Shown here in pieces: positions 14,978 to 43,667 of a stretch of DNA of 64,000 nt. The position numbers were made by a program, and so were the translations under genes. Every line of letters starts with the position of its first letter. The stretch's first letter is position 1. The notes beneath the pieces are model-generated. The model was given only the letters and a program-made list of their open reading frames with translations, did no database searches and was not told the DNA's origin. Source of the stretch: Claveliimonas bilis (GTDB taxonomy: Bacteria; Bacillota; Clostridia; Lachnospirales; Lachnospiraceae); the NCBI RefSeq assembly GCF_020892095.1, contig NZ_AP024845.1, forward strand, positions 124,001 to 188,000, in the 5' to 3' direction.

Positions 14978-15895
14978 TTATGCCGCTTCCCCTATCCTCA
15001 TCCGATTTCTGGGATGCAACTCCCTCAAAATCTCCGCCTGCTTTTTTGCCGCAATATGTATATAAATCTGGGTAGTTTTAATGGAACTATGTCCTAAGAT
15101 CTGCTGTACACAACTGACATCTACTCCTTCTTCAATCAAATATGTTGCAAATGAGTGACGAAACATATGCGGTGTTATATTTCTTTCAATCCCGGCTAAT
15201 TTTGTATACTTTTTTAACATTAGCCTTATTGATTGTTCCGTATATCTGCTTCCACGGTTATTAACAAAGAAAAATCCACTCTCCTTAATCACTTCGGCAT
15301 TTTGATGATAATATTGTCTTAAGATACCCAATATTTCTGTCGAAGCAATTTGGATATATCGCTCTTTTCCACCCTTCCCCATAATTTTGATAAGCCCTGT
15401 ATTAAGGTTTACACTATCTGCTCTAATATTGGATATTTCGTAAACCCTTGCGCCGGTAGCAAAAAAAGTTTCTATCACTGCCACATCCCGCAGCCAGTAT
15501 TTATAAACCTTTTCATCATTTTTATTTTCTTGTAGATACATATAATTCAAAAGCTGTTCAATTTCTTCCCGTGGGATAATTCTGGGAAGAATTACTGACT
15601 CTTTAAATTTTACTTTTATTTTTCTAAATGGATTGTCTGTAATAATATCCCTTTCTTCTAAATAAGTATAATACGCCTTAATAGATGCTATTTTTCGCTT
15701 TACAGTTTTTGGTTTATATTTCTTATGTAATTCTGTTATATAATCTTCTATTTTATCTTTGTTCGGTATATCTTCCAGCGTATATTCCAAGAATTGCTTC
15801 AAATCAATTCTGTATGCTTTTAAAGTATTCCAATCCAGTTCCTTTCTAAACTCACAATATTCCAGATATTTTTTCATTTGTTCCGTATAAGCCAC
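14978..15895 (-). CDS. Tyrosine recombinase (phage-integrase family)
   Basis: The protein (305 residues from the GTG at 15895, which has GGAGG 8 nt upstream; the frame is open to an ATG at 15934 that lacks a ribosome site) has an N-terminal SAM-like core-binding domain (YLEYCEFRKELDWNTLKAYRIDLKQFLEYTL) and a complete catalytic domain. Active-site residues are Arg in ATGARVYEI, Lys in GKGGKERYIQI, HMFRHSFATYL (His-x-x-Arg), LGHSSIKTTQIYIHI (His and nucleophile Tyr). There is no excisionase or phage gene nearby. It lies 240 bp from the left member of a perfect 20-bp inverted repeat that brackets two genes, so it is the likely invertase for that cassette. Confidence 0.9.
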   Translation of the reverse strand: MAYTEQMKKYLEYCEFRKELDWNTLKAYRIDLKQFLEYTLEDIPNKDKIEDYITELHKKYKPKTVKRKIASIKAYYTYLEERDIITDNPFRKIKVKFKESVILPRIIPREEIEQLLNYMYLQENKNDEKVYKYWLRDVAVIETFFATGARVYEISNIRADSVNLNTGLIKIMGKGGKERYIQIASTEILGILRQYYHQNAEVIKESGFFFVNNRGSRYTEQSIRLMLKKYTKLAGIERNITPHMFRHSFATYLIEEGVDVSCVQQILGHSSIKTTQIYIHIAAKKQAEILRELHPRNRMRIGEAA

Positions 15896-16051
15896 TTTTC
15901 TGTCCTCCATAACCTTTTTTCGGTAGTGTAGCATATTTACAAAAGAATTACCTAATACACATTTCTTTTGTGTAATCTCTCAATAAAATAACGGCTATCT
16001 TATTGCAAGTCGTTCAATTCTAATTAAAGTAAAATGCTCCACTTCAACTTT

Positions 16052-16081
16052 TTGATTTAATATAGCATTTTACTGTATTAT
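16052..16081 (+). promoter_or_regulatory. Promoter pointing into the invertible cassette
   Basis: TTGATT (16052-16057) and TATTAT (16076-16081) with an 18-nt spacer lie outside the left inverted repeat and point rightward through it. In the present orientation this would drive the Mrr-STAND gene; after inversion it would drive the glycosyltransferase gene. The boxes are moderately close to consensus. The same intergenic region also serves the leftward recombinase gene. Confidence 0.5.
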
Positions 16082-16136
16082 TTTCCGCAGTATCCGTCAG
16101 TTATAAAGTCCTCACTTTTTTATCTCCAAAATCGAA

Positions 16137-16156
16137 GATAATTAGCAGTTATCCGT
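16137..16156 (+). repeat. Left copy of 20-bp inverted repeat (recombination site)
   Basis: GATAATTAGCAGTTATCCGT here is repeated perfectly and in opposite orientation at 20758-20777. Each copy contains an internal dyad, (G)GATAA and TTATCC around a 7-nt TTAGCAG centre, which is the shape of a tyrosine recombinase core site with two arm-binding halves and a 6-8 nt asymmetric overlap. ATCCGT is repeated just after the site. Confidence 0.8.
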
Positions 16157-16199
16157 GATCCGTGATTCTATCTTTATATTCAACAAAAAGGAAAAACAA

Positions 16200-19100
16200 A
16201 TGAAAAAGCTTCCAAAATCGTATTGGGATAAATTTAAAGTAGAGAGTAAAAATGGTAACGACTCCAAATATGACGGATTAAAATTCGAAAATCTTATAAA
16301 TGAATTATTAGCAGTCCTTTACGGAAAAGAATGGGTACGCACTGGAAAATCACATGATAATAATAGAGATTTCTGGACTTTGATGGAAACAGAAGATGGG
16401 CAGAACAAACTTTGGGCCGAATGCAAAAATTACAAAGACAAAATTGCTCTTGATATCTTGGCTCCTACTTTAGTAATGGCACAAATTTATGGGGTTAACA
16501 CTATTATTTTTTTCAGTCGTTCACAGATTAATACACGTGCCAAAAATAAGATATTATTATACGGAGAAAAAACTGGGAAAAGAATCATTTTTTATGATTC
16601 AGATATATTGGAAGATTTGATCATTAATAACAGTAGTTATTTGTCCCCAAAATATCGCCCGGATCAGATAATTGATGAGGATATTCCCCAAAAAGAAAAC
16701 TTTGAAATCTTTTTCTTTCAGGATCCTATATTAGGGACGGTTATATCAGACAATGAATTCATAAACTACAGGTCAGCAATTAAAATTCATTATAATGAAT
16801 TTTTTACTTTGCTTTTTGTGATTAAAAATCCAACATCAGACAAAATGAATATCAGTTTGTCGTTTTCAAAAGAAAATCCGGACAGATTTTGTTTTGAGTA
16901 TATGGATGCCAATATTCATAGTGATAATCAGGAGTGGTGCAGAGTAGAGCTTGAAAAAGGCGAGGGTAAAGCAATTCCTCTCAATTTACGTTCCATACTT
17001 TTTAAATCCACAATGCAATTGCCGCGTTTTGATATTACAATTCTAACTGCAGAGGGAAAAAACAAGTCAAAATCTGAAGTGAAAAAGGTGAAGTGTACTT
17101 GGGTGGGGCAGACCAAATTGATTGGTTCATCATATGAAAAAATTTTAGATGATTTTGAAGAAAAACTGCTTAACAATCGCTCTTTCAGCTGTCTGCTTCT
17201 CGCGGGAACCAGTGGGACCGGAAAATCCAGAATTCTGTCCGAAATTATCGGAAAAGGACTAAAGCAGGGCTATAGAATTCTAAACCTTACCGCCACAGAA
17301 AATTTCTCATCCTTATATTTAATTCAGGAAATTATCTGCTTTATTTATGAAGTCTCTAAAACAGTTATTCTTTCAGCGTTGGAGGAAAAGATACAGGAAG
17401 CAGAGAGACTGGATCCGGAGGAGTCCTCTTCTAGCAAAAAAGTACTGCAATTATTCCGTATTTTAGAGAAAAGCAAAGCGGATCATAATATAAAAAATTT
17501 TATTGATAATTATGGAAGTATTATTTTTGAAAGACTTTCGAACTATAAATATATTATTTTGATTGATAATATTCAATTTACAAATGAAGATTTCCAGTAT
17601 TTTATAGAACAATATACTGTTTATGGTACTAACCAAAGCCGATATAATTATTCGGTACTGGCGGGCGCTTTCAACCTGGACTATATGACTTCCACAGCAG
17701 CAAATTTGTTATTTAATCTGCTTCATCTGGGAATCCCTCATATACTCTCCTATACGCTGAGCGGATTTAGAACGAATGAACAGGGCATCCTGTTTCTGCG
17801 AGAATTAATCCATACTACCGAAAAGGTCTTCGATCCCTTTTTTGAAAAACTGATAGATCAGGTTTCTCTGAAGCCTTATTATCTTTATCAGGGAGTCAGG
17901 TTACTGGAGGAATCAAATGTAATAAAGCAGCTGCCCAATCACCAAGGTTATTTATTTACAGATCTCAACGCTTTAGATGTGTTATTGAATCTGCCAAATG
18001 GCATTGCAGATATATTGAAAAAACGCTGGGAATTTATTTCGGATCAAATTGATCCAGGAGAACTTGCAGTAATTTTTTCTGCATTGTATTTATTTGAAAG
18101 AATGGACGATCAGGTTATTAATACACTTCAGATTGCTCGTGAATCTGTCAATTTTTTATGTTCTCATAGTTTTATTAAAAGAGATTCAGATGATAAATAC
18201 GAATTTGAACATGACATTATTCGCAACCATTTTGAAACATATCATAGAGATAAGATTTTTGAGAGTCTTGCGTGGATTGACCAGAATCATAAAGAAAATA
18301 TTTTATTATTTTACAAAATACCGAAACTACTTTACTATTGCTGTATTAAAGAGGACCCAGAATATGTTGTAAAGACCTGTACTGCTCTAGACACAATCCA
18401 AGTCCCAAATAAACTGTCAAAAATATTTTTCGAAAATATATTTTATACATGTCTTAATGCATACTCTATATTTGAACATCTGCCGGACTGGATATCAGCT
18501 ATACACAAAATATGTATTAATATCAGAGAGTATACAGGTTCTTCCAATGCTGCGGATTTTTATAAAAAGGCTTATGAATATATATTTTCAATTTTTCCAG
18601 ATATCAATATGCTGTATTCTACAAATTTTAGAAAAATGATACATTCATATTGCGATATACTTGTGGAATCTCATCAGAGAAGCGCTGCCGAAAGCCTGAT
18701 TCAAGAAATACTGGGTAAAGGTAAGAATACAGAAGAGCTGTCAGACGAGGCGCTGGATGAAAAGTATGTTTTGCAGTCAATTATGTTAAATCGCGAGTAT
18801 GTAGCCTATAATAATAGCGAACCAACTGAAGAAGTAATTCAAAAACGTAAAAAATTTATGCGGCAGTCTCGTGATTATATTAAGTTGATAAAAGATCCAC
18901 ATAAGAAAGGGTTAATTCAGTACCTGAATGATTCGGATGAAGGGTATAATTATTATGGGTTCCTAAAAGATAAGGACAGGCTGTTTTCTATATGGAATAG
19001 ATGCATTGGTAATATACCTGAGGAAGTACCAGAAAAAACAATGAATTATTACCGTAAACTAGTACAGTATGATTTGATTAATCAAGACAGCAGAAAGGTA

Positions 19101-19610
19101 GCTGCTCACATTGCTAATGGCCGAGAGTATCTGAAAACTGGCGAGTATTCCCATGAACCCATGATATTTAATACGTTTTTTATGATGGCAGAAGCGATGG
19201 ATAAATTGCAGCATATGCCGTGTGAACAGCACTATTATATCTGTAAATTGATCGATGATATACTACAAATTCAGTTAATGCTGAATAATGGGAAAATTGG
19301 TGATATTATGCTTATAAAAGGGGTAGATGCCTATTACAGCCGAAATGTTGATGATGTTTACTATTCATTTTATCAAGCGTTTACAGAATACAGAAAAAAG
19401 CAGACCTCACGTTTTTGGATAAAACTTCAATTACTGTATGAAAATATACAAATTTCATTTACTGAATTAAATATATATGGTTCTTGTTATAATGTTGACT
19501 TTTTGCCGGACAAATACAAAATACCGCTTACACGCGCGCAGTTAAAAAAAATCCGGGTAAGCGGTATTCAGCAGACGTCCGATGGCAAAATGAATCTTCC
19601 GTTAATATGA
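16200..19610 (+). CDS. Mrr-like nuclease fused to STAND-type ATPase, putative anti-phage protein
   Basis: The product is 1136 residues from the ATG at 16200 (AAAGG 8 nt upstream). Residues about 20-150 look like an Mrr/PD-(D/E)XK restriction domain: NNRDFW (Asp near 57), WAECKNYK (Glu-x-Lys near 74) and VMAQIYGVNTIIFFSRS. A beta-rich stretch follows (about 160-310). Then a P-loop ATPase: Walker A GTSGTGKS at 336-343 and Walker B YIILIDNIQ at 451-459. The C-terminal 500 residues are helical, Tyr- and Lys-rich, and look TPR-like without a clear repeat. Nuclease plus STAND ATPase plus helical sensor is the plan of Avs-type antiviral proteins, which recognise phage proteins and then cut DNA. I cannot assign it to a named Avs class. 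AT-rich codon use and the island setting suggest transfer. Confidence 0.75.
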   Translation: MKKLPKSYWDKFKVESKNGNDSKYDGLKFENLINELLAVLYGKEWVRTGKSHDNNRDFWTLMETEDGQNKLWAECKNYKDKIALDILAPTLVMAQIYGVNTIIFFSRSQINTRAKNKILLYGEKTGKRIIFYDSDILEDLIINNSSYLSPKYRPDQIIDEDIPQKENFEIFFFQDPILGTVISDNEFINYRSAIKIHYNEFFTLLFVIKNPTSDKMNISLSFSKENPDRFCFEYMDANIHSDNQEWCRVELEKGEGKAIPLNLRSILFKSTMQLPRFDITILTAEGKNKSKSEVKKVKCTWVGQTKLIGSSYEKILDDFEEKLLNNRSFSCLLLAGTSGTGKSRILSEIIGKGLKQGYRILNLTATENFSSLYLIQEIICFIYEVSKTVILSALEEKIQEAERLDPEESSSSKKVLQLFRILEKSKADHNIKNFIDNYGSIIFERLSNYKYIILIDNIQFTNEDFQYFIEQYTVYGTNQSRYNYSVLAGAFNLDYMTSTAANLLFNLLHLGIPHILSYTLSGFRTNEQGILFLRELIHTTEKVFDPFFEKLIDQVSLKPYYLYQGVRLLEESNVIKQLPNHQGYLFTDLNALDVLLNLPNGIADILKKRWEFISDQIDPGELAVIFSALYLFERMDDQVINTLQIARESVNFLCSHSFIKRDSDDKYEFEHDIIRNHFETYHRDKIFESLAWIDQNHKENILLFYKIPKLLYYCCIKEDPEYVVKTCTALDTIQVPNKLSKIFFENIFYTCLNAYSIFEHLPDWISAIHKICINIREYTGSSNAADFYKKAYEYIFSIFPDINMLYSTNFRKMIHSYCDILVESHQRSAAESLIQEILGKGKNTEELSDEALDEKYVLQSIMLNREYVAYNNSEPTEEVIQKRKKFMRQSRDYIKLIKDPHKKGLIQYLNDSDEGYNYYGFLKDKDRLFSIWNRCIGNIPEEVPEKTMNYYRKLVQYDLINQDSRKVAAHIANGREYLKTGEYSHEPMIFNTFFMMAEAMDKLQHMPCEQHYYICKLIDDILQIQLMLNNGKIGDIMLIKGVDAYYSRNVDDVYYSFYQAFTEYRKKQTSRFWIKLQLLYENIQISFTELNIYGSCYNVDFLPDKYKIPLTRAQLKKIRVSGIQQTSDGKMNLPLI

Positions 19611-20729
19611 TCAGCATTTTTTATCGGCAATATCCTTCAAACGTATTATGTTCCCGTGTCTGTCGATAACCAAATCATATTCAATATTACGTAACTCAAA
19701 CCACAACTGATTTTCAAAAAGGCCTATAAAAGTATCGACAAAATATAATATGGGAGTGGCCAGATCTAAATAATTGAAAGATACTGTTTCATATAGAGTA
19801 ATATGTTCATTATCTCGTATGGTATCTGGCCGCTCAATAATATCAAGAAACTCAACATGCAATTCTCTTTTGATCATTTCATAGTAACTATTTCGATCAT
19901 ACATAGTGGATATGTCTAATAATAAATATTTTTCTGCCAGATCAGGATATATCTTTTTTGTATAATCCGCACTGATTTTAAACCAATCCCAGATATCATA
20001 TACGAATTTTGCATAATCTTTCATTCCATAAATCCCTTTTGCATCCAGGCGATAATAACTGAAGTTTGTTTTTGAGTTATTGGAAGAAGTACTGCCTTTA
20101 TGAAATGCTATTGCATCTGCAGCCACCCAGGTTTCGTATCCAATATCTCTAAGCCGCAGACAATAGTCGCAGTCGGTATATGAATAGGGAATTTCTTCAT
20201 CCAGTCCGCCAACTTCCTGGAGCAGACTCTTTTTTGTCATGAGAACGGCACTGCATACAGTCTGCACTTTTCTATTATGTTGCGCCAAAGGATGATTCCA
20301 GCTTAATCCCATCATAGTATGGGCGGCGTTGAAACGCGAATACATAATTCCAAAGTCTAATATACGATTGTTTAATGGATTGATAAGTTTGGCACTAACA
20401 GCTCCAATATGTTCTGAGGACAGCAGACATTCAAGAAGGTTTTCGTACCAGCCATCCCATACAAAAATATCAGCATCAACAAAAGTGATAATATCTCCGC
20501 TGCATACTGAAACACCATAATTGATTGCTTTTGGATATTGTAAATTTGCCTGAAATTTATAATATCTACATCTTTGGGAATCAATGTTGAGCTCTAATTC
20601 TGAAGCGTTAACATTATTTCCTATAATTAGAATCTCTACATTTTTATCGACTGTTTCCATAATACGTTTTAGACAATAATAGAGCATATCTTTATTTTTA
20701 TGATATGTAATAATAATAGACTGTTTCAT
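19611..20729 (-). CDS. Family 2 glycosyltransferase
   Basis: The 372-residue protein has a GT-A fold: IIITYHKNKDMLYYCLKRIMETVD at the start, GDIITFVDADIFVWDGWYENLL with the DxD metal/nucleotide motif (about residue 88), AVSAKLINPLNNRILDFG, and VGGLDEEIPYSYTDCDYCLRLRDIGYETWVAADAIAFHKGS, the rhamnosyl/galactofuranosyl-type acceptor region. There is no membrane segment, so it acts in the cytoplasm. AAAGGAGGG precedes the ATG. Its partner gene in the cassette is a defence protein, an unusual pairing; a role in altering a surface glycan that phages bind is a reasonable guess but not shown. It is separate from the glycan operon at 26-43 kb. Confidence 0.85.
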   Translation of the reverse strand: MKQSIIITYHKNKDMLYYCLKRIMETVDKNVEILIIGNNVNASELELNIDSQRCRYYKFQANLQYPKAINYGVSVCSGDIITFVDADIFVWDGWYENLLECLLSSEHIGAVSAKLINPLNNRILDFGIMYSRFNAAHTMMGLSWNHPLAQHNRKVQTVCSAVLMTKKSLLQEVGGLDEEIPYSYTDCDYCLRLRDIGYETWVAADAIAFHKGSTSSNNSKTNFSYYRLDAKGIYGMKDYAKFVYDIWDWFKISADYTKKIYPDLAEKYLLLDISTMYDRNSYYEMIKRELHVEFLDIIERPDTIRDNEHITLYETVSFNYLDLATPILYFVDTFIGLFENQLWFELRNIEYDLVIDRHGNIIRLKDIADKKC

Positions 20730-20757
20730 ATATTCCCTCCTTTATCCTCAGGTAGTT

Positions 20758-20777
20758 ACGGATAACTGCTAATTATC
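20758..20777 (-). repeat. Right copy of 20-bp inverted repeat (recombination site)
   Basis: This is the reverse complement of the 20-mer at 16137-16156, with no mismatch. The dyad arms GGATAA/TTATCC are complete here, and a further TTATCC lies at 20741-20746, possibly an accessory binding site. The copy lies 28 nt before the glycosyltransferase ATG and 26 nt past the kwaB-like stop. Confidence 0.8.
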
Positions 20778-20803: not shown

Positions 20804-21628
20804 TCATTCTAGCTTGTAAACTGAATTTGCCACTCGCTTCTCATTTGTAATCGGCGTTGTATAACACCTTTGTTCTATACCATAAAGAAGCTTTTTCAAA
20901 TCTTCTTCGTTATTTATTTCAAATGATTTTCCATTATATTTTAGTCCTGGGAAATAGTCATTTGTGTATATAAACAACTCTTTTTTTTCAGTTTTATTTA
21001 ATTTAACTAATGTATCCATCGCCAATGCAATTCTCTTTCTGTTGGCTTTTCCTACCCTGTTTACATTGTAATTATTCCCAAGCTTTATAAATTTCTTATC
21101 AAGAAACTTCTCAACTTCTTCTCCTGTAGCTTCTCGATACAACTTATCAATCCCTTTAAAAATCGGCGAAATTGTCTCCAACTTCTTAAAATATAGAATA
21201 TCCCTCTCCCGCAGATAAATGGCATCAGGAATTTTATTGATAATAATACCTTGTCCTGTTTCTTCAATTTTAAAATCTCCTGAGCAATCAAGAAATTTTT
21301 GCTTTCGCATAATTCTACTTTCCATTGCTCTCTGAAAATAAAATTCATTTCCCGACTGATATGCACAAAGATATTGGATCTGATTTATATCCCCTTTCTT
21401 CATCTGTGCATATGTAGTAGAGTCAATAGGTTCTCCCAAAAATTGTAAACAAAAATCCTTTTTTGACAGGCTTTTCACGGCATACCATTCATCTTCCTCA
21501 AGTTTATAATTCACATCATATTCTACTGCATTTTCTATATCCTCGGGTTTTTCATATATAGTCTTTCCAGATAATATTTTTTCATATTTTTCTATTCGTC
21601 CTTTCATTCTTGCGAATAAGTGATCCAT
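20804..21628 (-). CDS. KwaB-like (DUF4868) protein, probable Kiwa defence component
   Basis: The 274-residue soluble protein has a central pattern I associate with DUF4868/KwaB: YFQRAMESRIMRKQKFLDCSGDFKIEETGQGIIINKIPDAIYLRERDILYFKKLETISPIFKGIDKLYREATGEEVEKFL, then VNRVGKANRKRIALAMDTL. In Kiwa, KwaB acts with the membrane protein KwaA to stop phage DNA replication and late transcription. Here the gene follows a membrane-protein gene by 3 nt, as in Kiwa. Family assignment is from pattern memory and should be checked; the two-gene layout supports it. Confidence 0.6.
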   Translation of the reverse strand: MDHLFARMKGRIEKYEKILSGKTIYEKPEDIENAVEYDVNYKLEEDEWYAVKSLSKKDFCLQFLGEPIDSTTYAQMKKGDINQIQYLCAYQSGNEFYFQRAMESRIMRKQKFLDCSGDFKIEETGQGIIINKIPDAIYLRERDILYFKKLETISPIFKGIDKLYREATGEEVEKFLDKKFIKLGNNYNVNRVGKANRKRIALAMDTLVKLNKTEKKELFIYTNDYFPGLKYNGKSFEINNEEDLKKLLYGIEQRCYTTPITNEKRVANSVYKLE

Positions 21629-21631
21629 GGT

Positions 21632-22147
21632 CTAACACCCCTTATCGATAAAAGTAAAATCGTTAATTCTTCGTAAATCCAAAAATTGCAATCCTTCTGT
21701 TTCCTGTATGCGCCTTTTAGAAATCACAAATATTTTCACCCCATTTTTTTTCGTAACACCATAAAATTTATAACCCAGCAGTAGAAAAATTGGATTAAAA
21801 TACTGCGCCTGGGAACAAAAAACGAAAAGGAAAATCATCCCAAAAACACAAATTAATGTTATCCAATCTCCATCTGAAATGCTTGTTCCCACAAAAAAAT
21901 ATCCCAAATATACCGCCATATAAGACTCTTCACCTACTTCTATAGTTTGCACATATTCAATCGAATCCAAACTCAAAAAATCTGAAATCTTTATACATAC
22001 TATTGACAAAATAATCGGAACAAGCAGATAAACAGCAATAGACCATTGTTCCTGTTTCCATATCCATATATGAGATTTTATGAGATATACCACCAATAAT
22101 AAAAGGAGTGAATTAAATGTCAAAATAAACCTATAAAATATCCTCAT
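21632..22147 (-). CDS. KwaA-like membrane protein, probable Kiwa sensor
   Basis: The roughly 171-residue protein has four hydrophobic segments (about residues 5-25, 38-58, 75-100 and 105-130) and a basic cytoplasmic tail with VTKKNGVKIFVISKRRIQETEGLQFLDLRRIND. Size, four-span topology and the position directly upstream of a DUF4868-like gene match KwaA of the Kiwa system, where it forms membrane assemblies that sense infection. The sequence itself is poorly conserved, so the call rests mainly on context. Starts at 22156 (GTG), 22150 or 22147 (ATG) are all possible. Confidence 0.55.
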   Translation of the reverse strand: MRIFYRFILTFNSLLLLLVVYLIKSHIWIWKQEQWSIAVYLLVPIILSIVCIKISDFLSLDSIEYVQTIEVGEESYMAVYLGYFFVGTSISDGDWITLICVFGMIFLFVFCSQAQYFNPIFLLLGYKFYGVTKKNGVKIFVISKRRIQETEGLQFLDLRRINDFTFIDKGC

Positions 22148-22234
22148 CATAATCACTATTTCAAATTTTCTCGATAATTAAAAAACAGCAAACTCCTCTC
22201 TTTAAATGTTACTGAAGAATTTTGCCGTCAATTT

Positions 22235-22422: not shown

Positions 22423-22713
22423 TTAAAACATGACTCCTTGATACATTTTTACGATCGTATTCGGACTTTTCATCCCCAGACACGTCTTGATGTAGTTATT
22501 CGATCTCCTCTGGTACACTTCCAGCTGTTTCCGGCCGTCTTCCAGGCTATACATCCGCATCTGCTTATAAAATCTCGCTTCATCTGTCCGGTGCTGGCGT
22601 TCTACTTTCCCGTTATGTCTCGGCGTTGCTATCTGTATCCGGTGATACACGATCCCCAGCTCCTCCAGGGCCTTTTCAAACAGATGTGCGTGGTAAGGTG
22701 ATTTTACAGCCAC
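22423..22713 (-). pseudogene. C-terminal fragment of an IS481-like transposase
   Basis: About 90 residues remain: FEKALEELGIVYHRIQIATPRHNGKVERQHRTDEARFYKQMRMYSLEDGRKQLEVYQRRSNNYIKTCLGMKSPNTIV, the C-terminal part of an rve/IS481-type DDE transposase including the catalytic Glu in NGKVERQHR. The 5' part is missing because the IS21-family element is joined here; the first few codons of the frame come from the IS21 tip. The sequence on the other side, to about 22280, has short dyads that may be the old IS end. Confidence 0.75.
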
Positions 22714-22830
22714 AGGGTAAGGAGTTTTTTACATGACGCGGTAAGAACTTTTTTACATCATGCGGTAAGGAGTTTTTTACATGAGTTGGTAAGAAGTTCT
22801 TTACACCGTCCGGTAAGAACTTTTTTACAT
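22692..22830. repeat. IS21 left-end tandem repeats
   Basis: About six copies of an 18-nt unit (GGTAAGRA/GGAG, T-run, ACA) occur in one orientation with spacing of 8-10 nt. A 74-codon open frame across them on the minus strand is only the translated repeat. The mirrored set lies at the right end of the element. Confidence 0.8.
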
Positions 22831-22916
22831 CCTCTGCGGCGAGTTTTATCACAGGAGGAGTCAGCAGTTCATCCGATTTTGTATACTGTAAGCAGTACAC
22901 AAGAGAGGAGACCTTT

Positions 22917-24491
22917 ATGCTGACAAAAACAAAAATGCAGGAAATACAGGATTTAAAACTGCAAGGTTACACAAAAGCTGATATTATCAGATACTATGAA
23001 GCGCAGGGACGCAAGCCTCCCAGCCGGCCCACAATCAGCAAGTATTATGACATGGATGTGCTCCCGGATGATCCCGGCGCTAATCTTGCAAAACCAAAAA
23101 CATTTGACGCGGAGCCTTTCCGCAGCACGATTATCAGAATCCTTGAGACGAACAGTGGAAAAAGTTTCTGTATGTCATCTGTTTACGATGTCCTGGAAGA
23201 AAAATTCATCGAAAACGGAGCGTATGAAAAACTTCCCGGGAACCAGCAGACGCTCCGCAACTATATCCACTATCTTGAGGATTCCGGACAGATCAACAGG
23301 GAACCGGAGCATCGTCGTATCTATGATTATGTTTTTGACACCCCGCCTGGAGAACAGATGCTGATCGACTTCGGTGAGGAGCCTCTCTCAAAAACAACGC
23401 ACATCCATTTCATCTGCCTTTTGCTGCGTTACAGCCGTTTTTTATGCATTTATGCACAGGATCACAAGTATAACTCGGAAGAAGCCTGTAAGGCAATCTA
23501 TCATAGTTTCTGCCGGCTTGGAGGGCGTCCGAAAGAACTGGTCATTGACCAGGACGCCGTGTTTGTCGCCAGTGAAACCTATGGTGAAGTCATCAAGACC
23601 AGGACCTTTGAAGATTTCTGTACTGACCAGGATATCCGGCTCTGGGTGTGTAATAAAGCGGATCCGGAAAGCAAGGGACCTATCGAAAACTCTGTCGGGT
23701 TCGTGAAGAAAAACTTCTTCAGTGCGCGGAAGGTCACCTGTATCGATGATGTATGGCGTTCCCTGCCCGGATGGCTGGAACGCAAGAACCAGCGGATCCA
23801 CCGTTCTACCTTACGGGTCCCAAAAGCAGTCTACGACAGCATTGAAAGGTCAGCCATGCGGCCTCTTCTTCCATCCGTGTATGAAACATCTCCGAATACG
23901 TTCCGCACTTATGAAATCGCGGCAATGCCTTACGTCCTGTATAAATCATGCAGGTATTCGGTTCCCCGTGATTATGCTTTCAAAACGGTACGATTCAAAG
24001 TTGTCAGTGGAAAGATCCACATTTATGACGATCAGCTGAACTATATCTGTTCCCATAACCTCAGTGAGCGAAAAGGAAGTGTCAATCAGCTCCCAGAGCA
24101 CCGGAAGCAGGACTCCGGAGACTGGATCGAGATCATGGAACGTCTCCGCGGGAAATGGAACTGCTATGACTTCCAGCACTTCATCAATGGTGTAAAAAAG
24201 GAAAATCCACGGCATATCTCCAAACAGCTTCGGGCAATTGAACAATTCCTTGATTCTGAGAATCCGGATAAATCCCTGGTAGCACAGGTGATGAAGGAGT
24301 GCTGCCAGAAATACCGGTATCAGTTCTCACAGTTTAAAGTTGTTTACAGCCTTGCAAAAGCCGGCCGGGAACTGGCCACAGACGACTGCCGCGCACAGGT
24401 TCCATCCGGCAGTGTCAGCTACACGGATCTTTCTGTTTATGCAAAAGCCTTTCAGGAACGCACAGAGAGGAAGGAGGCTGCTGCTCGATGA
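22917..24491 (+). CDS. istA: IS21 transposase IstA
   Basis: The 524-residue protein has an N-terminal HTH (MQEIQDLKLQGYTKADIIRYYEAQGRKPPSRPTISKYY) and an rve catalytic core: Asp in QMLIDFGEEPL, Asp in KELVIDQDAVFV, and Glu in ESKGPIENSVGFVKKNFF. The C-terminal domain (VPRDYAFKTVRFKV) is typical of IstA. AGGAG lies about 9 nt before the start. The gene is full length and appears functional. Confidence 0.95.
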   Translation: MLTKTKMQEIQDLKLQGYTKADIIRYYEAQGRKPPSRPTISKYYDMDVLPDDPGANLAKPKTFDAEPFRSTIIRILETNSGKSFCMSSVYDVLEEKFIENGAYEKLPGNQQTLRNYIHYLEDSGQINREPEHRRIYDYVFDTPPGEQMLIDFGEEPLSKTTHIHFICLLLRYSRFLCIYAQDHKYNSEEACKAIYHSFCRLGGRPKELVIDQDAVFVASETYGEVIKTRTFEDFCTDQDIRLWVCNKADPESKGPIENSVGFVKKNFFSARKVTCIDDVWRSLPGWLERKNQRIHRSTLRVPKAVYDSIERSAMRPLLPSVYETSPNTFRTYEIAAMPYVLYKSCRYSVPRDYAFKTVRFKVVSGKIHIYDDQLNYICSHNLSERKGSVNQLPEHRKQDSGDWIEIMERLRGKWNCYDFQHFINGVKKENPRHISKQLRAIEQFLDSENPDKSLVAQVMKECCQKYRYQFSQFKVVYSLAKAGRELATDDCRAQVPSGSVSYTDLSVYAKAFQERTERKEAAAR

Positions 24492-25291
24492 ACCGTGAAA
24501 TCTTAAAAAGTATGGATACCGGCCATATCCCTGTACAGCGGCTCACAGCCCTGCTTGAAACGTTTACCTTAAAGCACGCGGCGCGTATGCTTCCGGATCT
24601 TCTGGAAACCGCAGATCTTCAGGACTCCTCCTGCAGGGAATTCCTTCTGGCTGTTCTCGAGACCGAAGTCAAAGGTCGGAATGAACGGCGTCGGAAGCGT
24701 AACTATTCCGCAGCGCATTTTCCACCAAATATCCGACCATTAGAAGAGTTTGATCCGGAAGAGCTGGAGTCAGGTATCACCCACGCGCAGCTCTCCGTAT
24801 TGAAAGAATTATCCTGGCTGGACAACTGCGGAAACCTTGTCTTTGCGGGGCCTCCCGGCCTCGGCAAGACCATGGTTGCCTGTGGCCTTGGTCTACAGGC
24901 TATCAACAGTGGCTATACTGTATGTTTTGAGAAGATGACCAACCTGATTAAGATTCTCGACACCGCAGAAACAGAGCGTGCAGCCGGATTTCGACTCAAA
25001 AATATCAAGAAAGCACAGCTTGTCATCATTGATGAGATCGGCTATACACCGATCAGCCGCGGACAGGCAAACCGCTTTTTCACATTTATCAGTGACACCT
25101 ATGAAACCAGTTCCATCATCTTTACCACCAACAAAGAGATTGTTGACTGGGCTGAGATGATGGGGGATCCAGTACTTACCACTGCAATGCTGGACCGGAT
25201 CCTGCACCATGCCAAGTGTTACTCTTTCCGCGGGGAATCCTACCGGCTGAAGCACCCTGACCTGTACCCACAGGGAGACGCAGGGATGTAA
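24488..25291 (+). CDS. istB: IS21 transposition helper ATPase IstB
   Basis: The 267-residue AAA+ ATPase has Walker A FAGPPGLGKTMVA (about residue 118), Walker B LVIIDEIGYTPIS (about 178) and sensor region SSIIFTTNKEIVDW. IstB assembles on target DNA and activates IstA. Its ATG overlaps the istA stop by 4 nt (ATGA). Confidence 0.95.
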   Translation: MNREILKSMDTGHIPVQRLTALLETFTLKHAARMLPDLLETADLQDSSCREFLLAVLETEVKGRNERRRKRNYSAAHFPPNIRPLEEFDPEELESGITHAQLSVLKELSWLDNCGNLVFAGPPGLGKTMVACGLGLQAINSGYTVCFEKMTNLIKILDTAETERAAGFRLKNIKKAQLVIIDEIGYTPISRGQANRFFTFISDTYETSSIIFTTNKEIVDWAEMMGDPVLTTAMLDRILHHAKCYSFRGESYRLKHPDLYPQGDAGM

Positions 25292-43362: not shown

Positions 43363-43418
43363 ATCATCACTTCCCTGTTTGATTTTCGTAGAGTAAACTA
43401 CTCTGCGAAACTTTAGTT

Positions 43419-43447
43419 ATTATACATCATAAAGTATAGCTGTTCAA
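43419..43447 (-). promoter_or_regulatory. Glycan operon promoter, in the ON orientation
   Basis: TTGAAC (43442-43447) and TATAAT (43419-43424) on the minus strand are exactly 17 nt apart. The expected start point, near 43412, is right at the inner edge of the left inverted site, so the mRNA would begin with that site as a hairpin, about 50 nt before the first NusG-like gene. If the segment flips, the promoter faces the 3' end of trmD instead. Confidence 0.8.
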
Positions 43448-43577
43448 GAAAAAATACTAAATAAGTACATTTTACGATAATTTTAGCCATTTCTTGATTC
43501 ATTTTATGCTGATAAAATCAATCTTAATTTTTTTCTATAACAACTAATCTCATATTTATTCAAAATAATATCTGATT

Positions 43578-43612
43578 ATTCTCTGGATTCTTCCAGAGAA
43601 TTTTTATTTTCC
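43578..43612 (+). terminator. Terminator inside the invertible segment
   Basis: A perfect 10-bp stem (ATTCTCTGGA and TCCAGAGAAT, loop TTCT) is followed by TTTTATTTT on the plus strand. In the current orientation it faces away from the glycan operon. After inversion it would face leftward and block read-through from trmD into the operon. Confidence 0.8.
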
Positions 43613-43667
43613 AAAACAAATTATGAAATGATTTTCGCAGAGTAGTTTACTCTGCGATTTTTGTTAT

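Follow-up and report, generated by a model that had tools for sequence, protein, structure and literature searches.

Can two genes that lie tail to tail between inverted copies of one 20-bp sequence, beside a recombinase gene, change places and thereby exchange their expression? The question is raised by positions 16,137 to 20,777 of a 64,000-nucleotide (nt) stretch of the Claveliimonas bilis genome (contig NZ_AP024845.1, positions 124,001 to 188,000; hereafter the window), where a putative immune gene and a glycosyltransferase gene are enclosed in this way. A likely answer, and the best account of the observations, is a two-arm inversion switch with recombinase-driven flipping. The feature itself is real; it is probably active and belongs to a large class. 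The sites, the convergent arms, their opposite orientations in relatives, site-exact replacement of the interior and assembly forks at the sites can all be read from the genomes compared below.

Inverted sites and convergent genes in C. bilis

The sequence at 16,137-16,156 (+ strand) and its copy at 20,758-20,777 (- strand) form a perfect 20-bp inverted repeat enclosing 4,601 bp, in agreement with the original prediction, which was made from the window alone. The 3.04-Mb single-contig genome contains just these two copies, even with up to three mismatches allowed (a reversed-pattern control gave none). This excludes an unrelated repeat scattered through the genome and leaves two inverted copies, with no array of the site. 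Exact inverted repeats of at least 20 bp did not arise in 100 first-order Markov simulations of the window; the window itself has two others, a near-palindrome at 16,782 and a 21-bp pair at 43,390/43,633. Both sites carry an identical asymmetric core, with the 7-nt center TTAGCAG, in inverted orientation and bound the segment between them, as the sites of an inversion system do. The original prediction placed the dyad GGATAA-N7-TTATCC in each copy. It is complete (6+6 bp) in the right copy, whereas the left copy reads AGATAA-N7-TTATCC, with the outermost pair mismatched and five matching dyad pairs (5+5 bp).

The two enclosed genes read inward and abut stop to stop at 19,610/19,611, again as predicted. 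The left arm (16,200-19,610, +), distal to the kwaAB genes described below, encodes an Mrr-like nuclease joined to a STAND/AAA NTPase with a long C-terminal region. Its start is more likely the ATG at 16,200, because the listed GTG at 16,155 falls inside the repeat; the two arms begin 46 and 31 nt inside their sites. Tested for an Avs-type layout, the protein matches Pfam Mrr_cat just above the cut-off (1.1e-4, 22.8 bits versus 21) and AAA_16 below it (7.9e-4, 20.4 bits versus 32.6), and its D..ExK and Walker A residues are conserved, being invariant across seven aligned NTPase sequences that include it. Its matches in PDB were weak (best E 0.02), and tblastn at E 1e-5 found no match in plasmid and phage collections. 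The right arm (19,611-20,729, -), directly downstream of kwaAB, encodes a GT2 glycosyltransferase of 372 amino acids (aa; Pfam Glycos_transf_2, 1.2e-13) with DAD and DCD motifs.

The fixed right flank consists of kwaB (20,804-21,628, -; PADLOC KwaB, 9.1e-17), which reads into the cassette, and kwaA (21,632-22,156, -; PADLOC KwaA, 4.5e-17), which reads into kwaB and the cassette. PADLOC thereby confirms the predicted operon reading in from the right, and finds the adjacent KwaA and KwaB genes of Kiwa in two further genomes as well (G010 and G012). On the left, the tyrosine recombinase gene expected beside the repeat is present (14,978-15,934, -), at a distance of 202 bp and not the 240 bp first given, and is transcribed away from the repeat. 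Its 318-aa product, the presumed invertase, is Xer-like (Pfam Phage_integrase, 3.6e-40): it matches the XerD and XerC models under their cut-offs, its closest solved relative is XerD (1a0p), and its next best match within its own genome is 31% identical. The locus does not qualify as an integron: the integron integrase model scored 98.3 bits against a cut-off of 265, and the site forms no array, attC hairpins not having been searched. The arrangement also differs from a shufflon or hsdS locus: the window arms are unrelated whole genes, and the sites lie outside both frames and join no coding sequence.

Cassette replacement and opposite orientations in relatives

We compared the window genome (G000) with a second single-contig genome of the same species (G001). 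On the kwaA-kwaB side the two align over 1,516 bp at 97.8% identity, and on the recombinase side over 1,475 bp at 97.0%, both alignments stopping at the inner edge of the site (window positions 20,760 and 16,153, respectively). Between the sites a single 203-bp stretch aligns, at 66.5%, within the glycosyltransferase genes. The G001 interior holds a hexapeptide acetyltransferase and an NTPase, facing a convergent glycosyltransferase and epimerase (acetyltransferase and epimerase being named via a 93%-identical copy in G012), and protein identity to the window is 26% for the NTPase and 39% for the glycosyltransferase. kwaAB reads into the acetyltransferase-NTPase arm in G001 and into the glycosyltransferase arm in the window. 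Judged from these alignments, and going beyond the original prediction, strains also differ by exchange of the entire interior, and the breakpoints coincide with the sites.

The G001 cassette recurs in another Lachnospiraceae genome, record CASEIR010000078 (G012), with 92.9% identity over 6,504 bp. It is bounded there by the sites and reversed relative to kwaAB, kwaB adjoining the other arm. The flanks of this shared cassette are unrelated or only 64-70% alike in the two genomes, and the recombinase genes are 64% identical in DNA. A 93% block that ends at the sites and is reversed within such distant flanks is, on sequence grounds, the strongest single evidence for both site exchange and inversion. 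The comparison of orientation in related genomes that had been proposed as a check has thus turned up the opposite orientation. Together with the assembly forks described next, it is indirect evidence that both orientations occur among relatives.

Eleven genomes of the genus, which NCBI places in Lachnospiraceae, were searched. Four contain the 20-mer at up to one mismatch and five have a recombinase match at E of 1e-40 or less. Two drafts in this sample, Claveliimonas monacensis DSM 108991 (G004; NZ_JADCKL) and Lachnoclostridium sp. An118 (G010; NZ_NFLQ), have assemblies that break at the sites. The G004 interior forms a separate 5,543-bp contig with a group 1 glycosyltransferase (804 aa) and a convergent NTPase (994 aa). 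Its first and last 127 bases are identical to the contig ends of the two flanks, both overlaps starting from a shared 18-mer. Since a single orientation should assemble through an 18-bp repeat at k = 127, a value taken from the overlap length, the break points to mixed orientations. In G010 the interior contig shares exactly 119 bases with the flank contig on each side, at a 17-mer, and the interior encodes an NTPase and a GT2 protein with IS66-like genes (recognized by eye) between them. With up to one mismatch allowed, neither genome showed further site copies, which makes a duplicate of the cassette an unlikely source of the forks. The forks suggest flipping within one culture.

A further candidate was set aside as proof of two orientations: contigs C16 and C7 of G359 start with the same 75 nt including the dyad, which a long inverted repeat explains equally. 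For G257 the same search gave no second contig that overlaps the start of either recombinase contig.

Recombinase loci across the Lachnospiraceae

A 16-mer scan of species genomes returned 81 stretches, against about 120 expected for random sequence, so these are mostly chance. Apart from the known G004 and G010, we followed six genomes in which the dyad was fuller or two sites occurred. In four of them two inverted sites lie 2.2-6.5 kb from each other, in the other two a single site adjoins a contig end, and in all six a recombinase 60-79% identical to that of the window lies nearby, so that site and recombinase are linked as in C. bilis.

A census of the recombinase itself, with 397 genomes drawn from the family, E values up to 1e-75 and at most five candidates scored per genome, gave at least 57 matches in 52 genomes; close homologs occur in at least 48 of 334 sampled genera. 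We fetched 55 loci, that is, all census matches besides those of G000 and G001. In 25 of them the recombinase adjoins an exact inverted repeat with an ATAA-N7-TTAT-type dyad, whose outermost bases differ from locus to locus, and every one of these 25 intact pairs encloses two convergent arms. The 7-nt center is identical within each pair and variable between loci, some of which share one. Thirteen more loci have a dyad within about 110 bp of a contig end, a count that rests on a looser AT-rich pattern and includes some chance matches. In 14 of the 55 loci no more than 210 bp separate the recombinase gene from a contig end, versus 0.70 expected (threshold chosen post hoc).

Arm contents

Thirty-three cassettes could be compared by content: the 25 of the census, those of G000, G001 and G011-G014, and the two split by assembly in G004 and G010. 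Arms were typed by Pfam and PADLOC, part of them being scanned, and several NTPases below Pfam cut-offs were called on Walker A and length. An NTPase faces a glycosyltransferase in G000, G001, G012, G004, G010, G011, G356, G124 and G056, a carbamoyltransferase in G122 and G092, and a GNAT-SHMT protein plus an unscanned enzyme in G029 and, by resemblance, G237. An NTPase or a TIR-TPR protein is set against an ATP-grasp enzyme of the D-Ala-D-Ala-ligase type in G164, G271, G352 and G297; the ATP-grasp arm of G112 has a partner without a Pfam match. ThsA-like and TIR proteins are opposed in G014 and G165, a weakly TIR-like protein and a GT2 protein in G013, TIR and radical SAM proteins in G141, and an ATP-grasp/radical SAM arm and a pentapeptide-repeat protein in G289, with a similar 765-aa protein in G192. 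A protein of 561-575 aa faces one of 337-364 aa in G197 (scanned, no Pfam match) and by resemblance in G044, G152 and G200; the arms of G364, G400, G187b, G322 and G120 are without clear type. A STAND, TIR or SIR2 gene is thus often paired with a glycan or ATP-grasp enzyme.

The window pair itself recurs in G356 (NTPase 42.5% and glycosyltransferase 63.4% identical) beside a 45%-identical recombinase and with a different site center, so the same pair is retained with different switch hardware. PADLOC identified ThsA with a TIR protein in the cassettes of G014 (ThsA, 4.2e-182) and G165 (1.1e-60), and both TIR proteins match PDC-S66 better than ThsB. Six NTPases scanned with PADLOC matched no model named Avs, giving weak mad8 and PDC-M16A matches only. 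Of the original claim, a switch of an abortive-type antiviral gene and a glycan gene between expression contexts, what is supported is a recombinase-linked invertible cassette in which an immune-type gene is paired with a glycan enzyme and into which kwaAB reads; the term 'abortive-type' draws on the Mrr/STAND architecture.

Promoter signals and the predicted expressed arm

Which arm would be expressed? The leaders from site to start codon measure 19-76 nt for 12 arms in six genomes (start codons chosen by hand), leaving little room for internal promoters. We scored promoter-like sequence in the 45 nt outside each site at 31 loci, 30 of them comparable. In 25 of the 30 the flank away from the recombinase has the higher score, in three the lower (Wilcoxon p 0.0009). 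A score of at least 14 is reached on 18 of the 30 far flanks and on 9 of the 31 flanks beside the recombinase, as against 18.7% of far flanks after shuffling. Coding DNA often makes up the recombinase flank, a possible bias in this comparison, and in G012 the recombinase and kwaAB share a flank. A TATAAT box begins 12-14 nt outside one site in G011, G013 and G004. This predicted asymmetry favors one-sided input and alternative expression of the arms, the latter being in our view moderately probable. Judged by the promoter matches on its two flanks, the predicted state of the window would be glycosyltransferase on and NTPase low.

Several observations weigh against this interpretation. Promoter evidence within the window is weak: the left flank has one 9-of-12 match versus 2.4 expected in shuffles, and the kwaAB side has 17 matches versus 10.1 expected, among them two 9-of-12 matches at 20,833-20,792 near the right site, besides an 11-of-12 match within kwaA. 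The outside promoter that the original prediction had pointing in from the left was therefore not borne out; left-side input is also at odds with the 31 loci, where promoter-like signal lies mostly on the flank opposite the recombinase. Some loci, such as G271 and G092 with their 90- and 126-bp inverted repeats, have leaders of more than 100 nt, and longer leaders are sometimes identical in both arms, as in these repeats. In 23 of 31 loci the recombinase is transcribed toward the cassette, which means that the second arm could be expressed by read-through, and two cassettes (G014 and G165) hold ThsA and TIR, Thoeris partners expected to act together. As to inversion itself, 30 of the 55 census loci have no intact pair, 17 of these lacking a contig-end dyad as well (some may have the partner site beyond the fetched stretch), and the single-contig assemblies of the window genome and G001 show one orientation each.

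Between the recombinase and the left site lies a hairpin with an 11-bp stem (16,028-16,074, +), a possible terminator or operator. The fold of 15,990-16,136 has a z score of -2.05 against dinucleotide shuffles, for a hairpin picked by eye; the 110 nt adjoining the left site reached only -1.2 in a systematic fold test, and a terminator scan found none between recombinase and left site. Across loci, a terminator in this position was suggested by hairpins picked by eye but is not significant over the whole set, where the hairpin excess on the recombinase flank is 9 versus 3 of 30 with z below -2.5 (paired p 0.49).

Alternative explanations and proposed mechanism

The arms might be partners that are needed together and transcribed from both flanks, inversion altering dosage or promoter strength only. 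Arm types do travel together across different sites and recombinases: a glycosyltransferase with an Mrr-STAND protein in the window, G001/G012 and G356, ThsA with TIR in G014 and G165, and the recurrent pairings of NTPases with ATP-grasp enzymes and carbamoyltransferases. The direction of the recombinase, toward the cassette in 23 of 31 loci, also fits. We nevertheless consider this explanation unlikely, as promoter-like signals are one-sided in 25 of 30 loci, neighbors in a mobile unit travel together without mutual need, and partner genes typically sit in operons, not in convergent arms that inversion would disturb.

Less probable still is a mobile cassette whose recombinase mediates exchange, with inversion a by-product of no regulatory use. 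That would account for the interior swapped at the sites between G000 and G001 and for the same cassette in G001 and G012 despite unlike flanks, but transfer alone does not require convergent arms in 25 of 25 pairs or promoter-like sites just outside one site, and the assembly forks suggest flipping inside one culture. It is very improbable that the repeat is a fossil of a past insertion or duplication at which recombination has been lost. The one orientation of the single-contig window genome and the mismatch at the outermost dyad pair of the left site are in keeping with such a relic; on the other hand, the recombinase frame is intact and 98% identical in G001, the corresponding G001 site bears the same outermost A although its interior differs, and the sites of relatives appear active.

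In the two-arm inversion switch that we prefer, the neighboring Xer-like recombinase, a putative invertase, would act on the two inverted GATAA-TTAGCAG-TTATC sites and flip the 4.6-kb block. The arm adjoining fixed upstream transcription (kwaAB in the window, elsewhere a predicted promoter outside the site) would be on, and the other off or low: because the arms start just inside the sites, with no room for a usual promoter, only the arm reached by fixed transcription would be expressed. The window orientation would join the glycosyltransferase to kwaAB and leave the Mrr/STAND NTPase in the other position. The fixed flank would also be a docking place, at which whole two-arm cassettes are swapped between strains and species at the same sites. 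That the cassette is invertible and exchangeable seems very likely from the comparisons above. Its purpose may be phage bet-hedging, setting a change of surface glycan against an intracellular immune sensor, a proposal to which we give about even chances. Catalysis by this recombinase, the transcribed arm and the bet-hedging purpose are what we infer.

More tentatively still, these loci may represent a general docking-site immune switch of Lachnospiraceae, in which a recombinase with a promoter or defense-operon flank takes interchangeable two-arm cassettes and each cell picks an immune effector or a surface/metabolite enzyme. If so, a clone would always hold both kinds of phage resistance. 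Such switches could account for the mixture of phage-resistance types that persists in clonal gut populations. The cassettes also name partner enzymes for uncharacterized STAND proteins and supply many natural Xer-like inversion sites with varied 7-nt centers.

Neighboring features and related loci

Between kwaA and the capsule operon of the window, six direct repeat copies with 24-nt spacing (GGTAAGNAGTTTTTTACAT type) occupy 22,692-22,855, adjoined by an IS21-like gene pair (by eye) at 22,917-25,291. A second candidate inverton, at 43,384-43,657, has 21-bp inverted repeats separated by 222 bp. It lies just upstream of a NusG-like gene (by eye), at the head of the capsule operon. A TTGAAC-17-TATAAT site lies between the repeats, and a like repeat with three mismatches is found elsewhere in the same genome (G000 C1:2218409-2218658). 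Against an inverton here, the repeats score as terminator hairpins (3 terminators versus 0.1 expected) and promoter matches are at chance level (2 versus 2.0).

Other loci met in the searches have features of their own. An 896-aa protein, Mrr/NTPase-like by eye, adjoins the recombinase outside the cassette in G004 (C3, L023, 7,338-10,028). In G011 (L136, 12,148-14,667) and G004 (L024, 356-2,884) the flank position beside the cassette is taken by a conserved unit of two genes, which encode proteins of 343-345 and 489-491 aa and show 68% DNA identity between the loci; the G011 copy has no PADLOC match, making the unit a candidate uncharacterized system. In G382 (L144, 6,255-12,270) and G073 (L147, 3,948-7,973), recombinases 66-68% identical lie between inverted flagellin genes (by eye), a possible flagellin phase switch; both are counted among the 17 loci without a pair or end dyad. 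A 53%-identical recombinase heads a capsule operon beside a contig end in G010 (C18, L025/L197, 1-1,108); a dyad of its own, GGATAATAAGGTATTATCC, precedes it by about 73 nt.

Comparison with known systems

A full-text literature search did not find a two-arm immune/glycan invertible cassette; preprints lay outside the search, and 'undescribed' is provisional. Passages of PMC11892184, PMC5903667, PMC12529663 and PMC10939037 treat promoter invertons, hsdS inversions and a case in which a serine recombinase affects phage adsorption, and P1/Mu and hsdS inversions are mentioned in passages of the first three. As presented in part of PMC11892184, inverton group 139 comprises clostridial inverted repeats with a tyrosine recombinase nearby and orientations that shift over time. 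The two examples given there with coordinates measure about 255 bp, against 1.8-6.7 kb for the whole-gene cassettes here, and the words 'defense' and 'phage' do not occur in the main text of PMC11892184.

Among defense systems, Avs/STAND proteins resemble the window NTPase in its putative layout of nuclease, NTPase and long C-terminus; in the PADLOC scan of six NTPases nothing named Avs matched, and the PDB matches were weak. Thoeris likewise combines ThsA and TIR, which in G014 and G165 are convergent arms of an invertible cassette. Kiwa is known as kwaAB standing alone; here kwaA-kwaB flanks the cassette in four genomes examined (G000, G010 and G012 by PADLOC, G001 by near-identity with the window) and is followed by a third, switchable gene.

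Inversion-based phase variation has mainly been described for surface structures, promoters and restriction specificity, whereas the recurrent plan seen here appears to offer an immune-type gene as one side of a reversible choice. In the G and C segments of phages Mu and P1, in Hin and in hsdS, inverted sites and a dedicated recombinase choose the coding sequence that meets fixed upstream DNA. The cassettes described here share the inverted sites, the recombinase and this effect of flipping. They differ in having an Xer-like tyrosine recombinase, two complete and unrelated genes, immune together with glycan or biosynthetic contents, and replacement of the whole cassette at the sites, the same short sequences appearing to permit such replacement between species.

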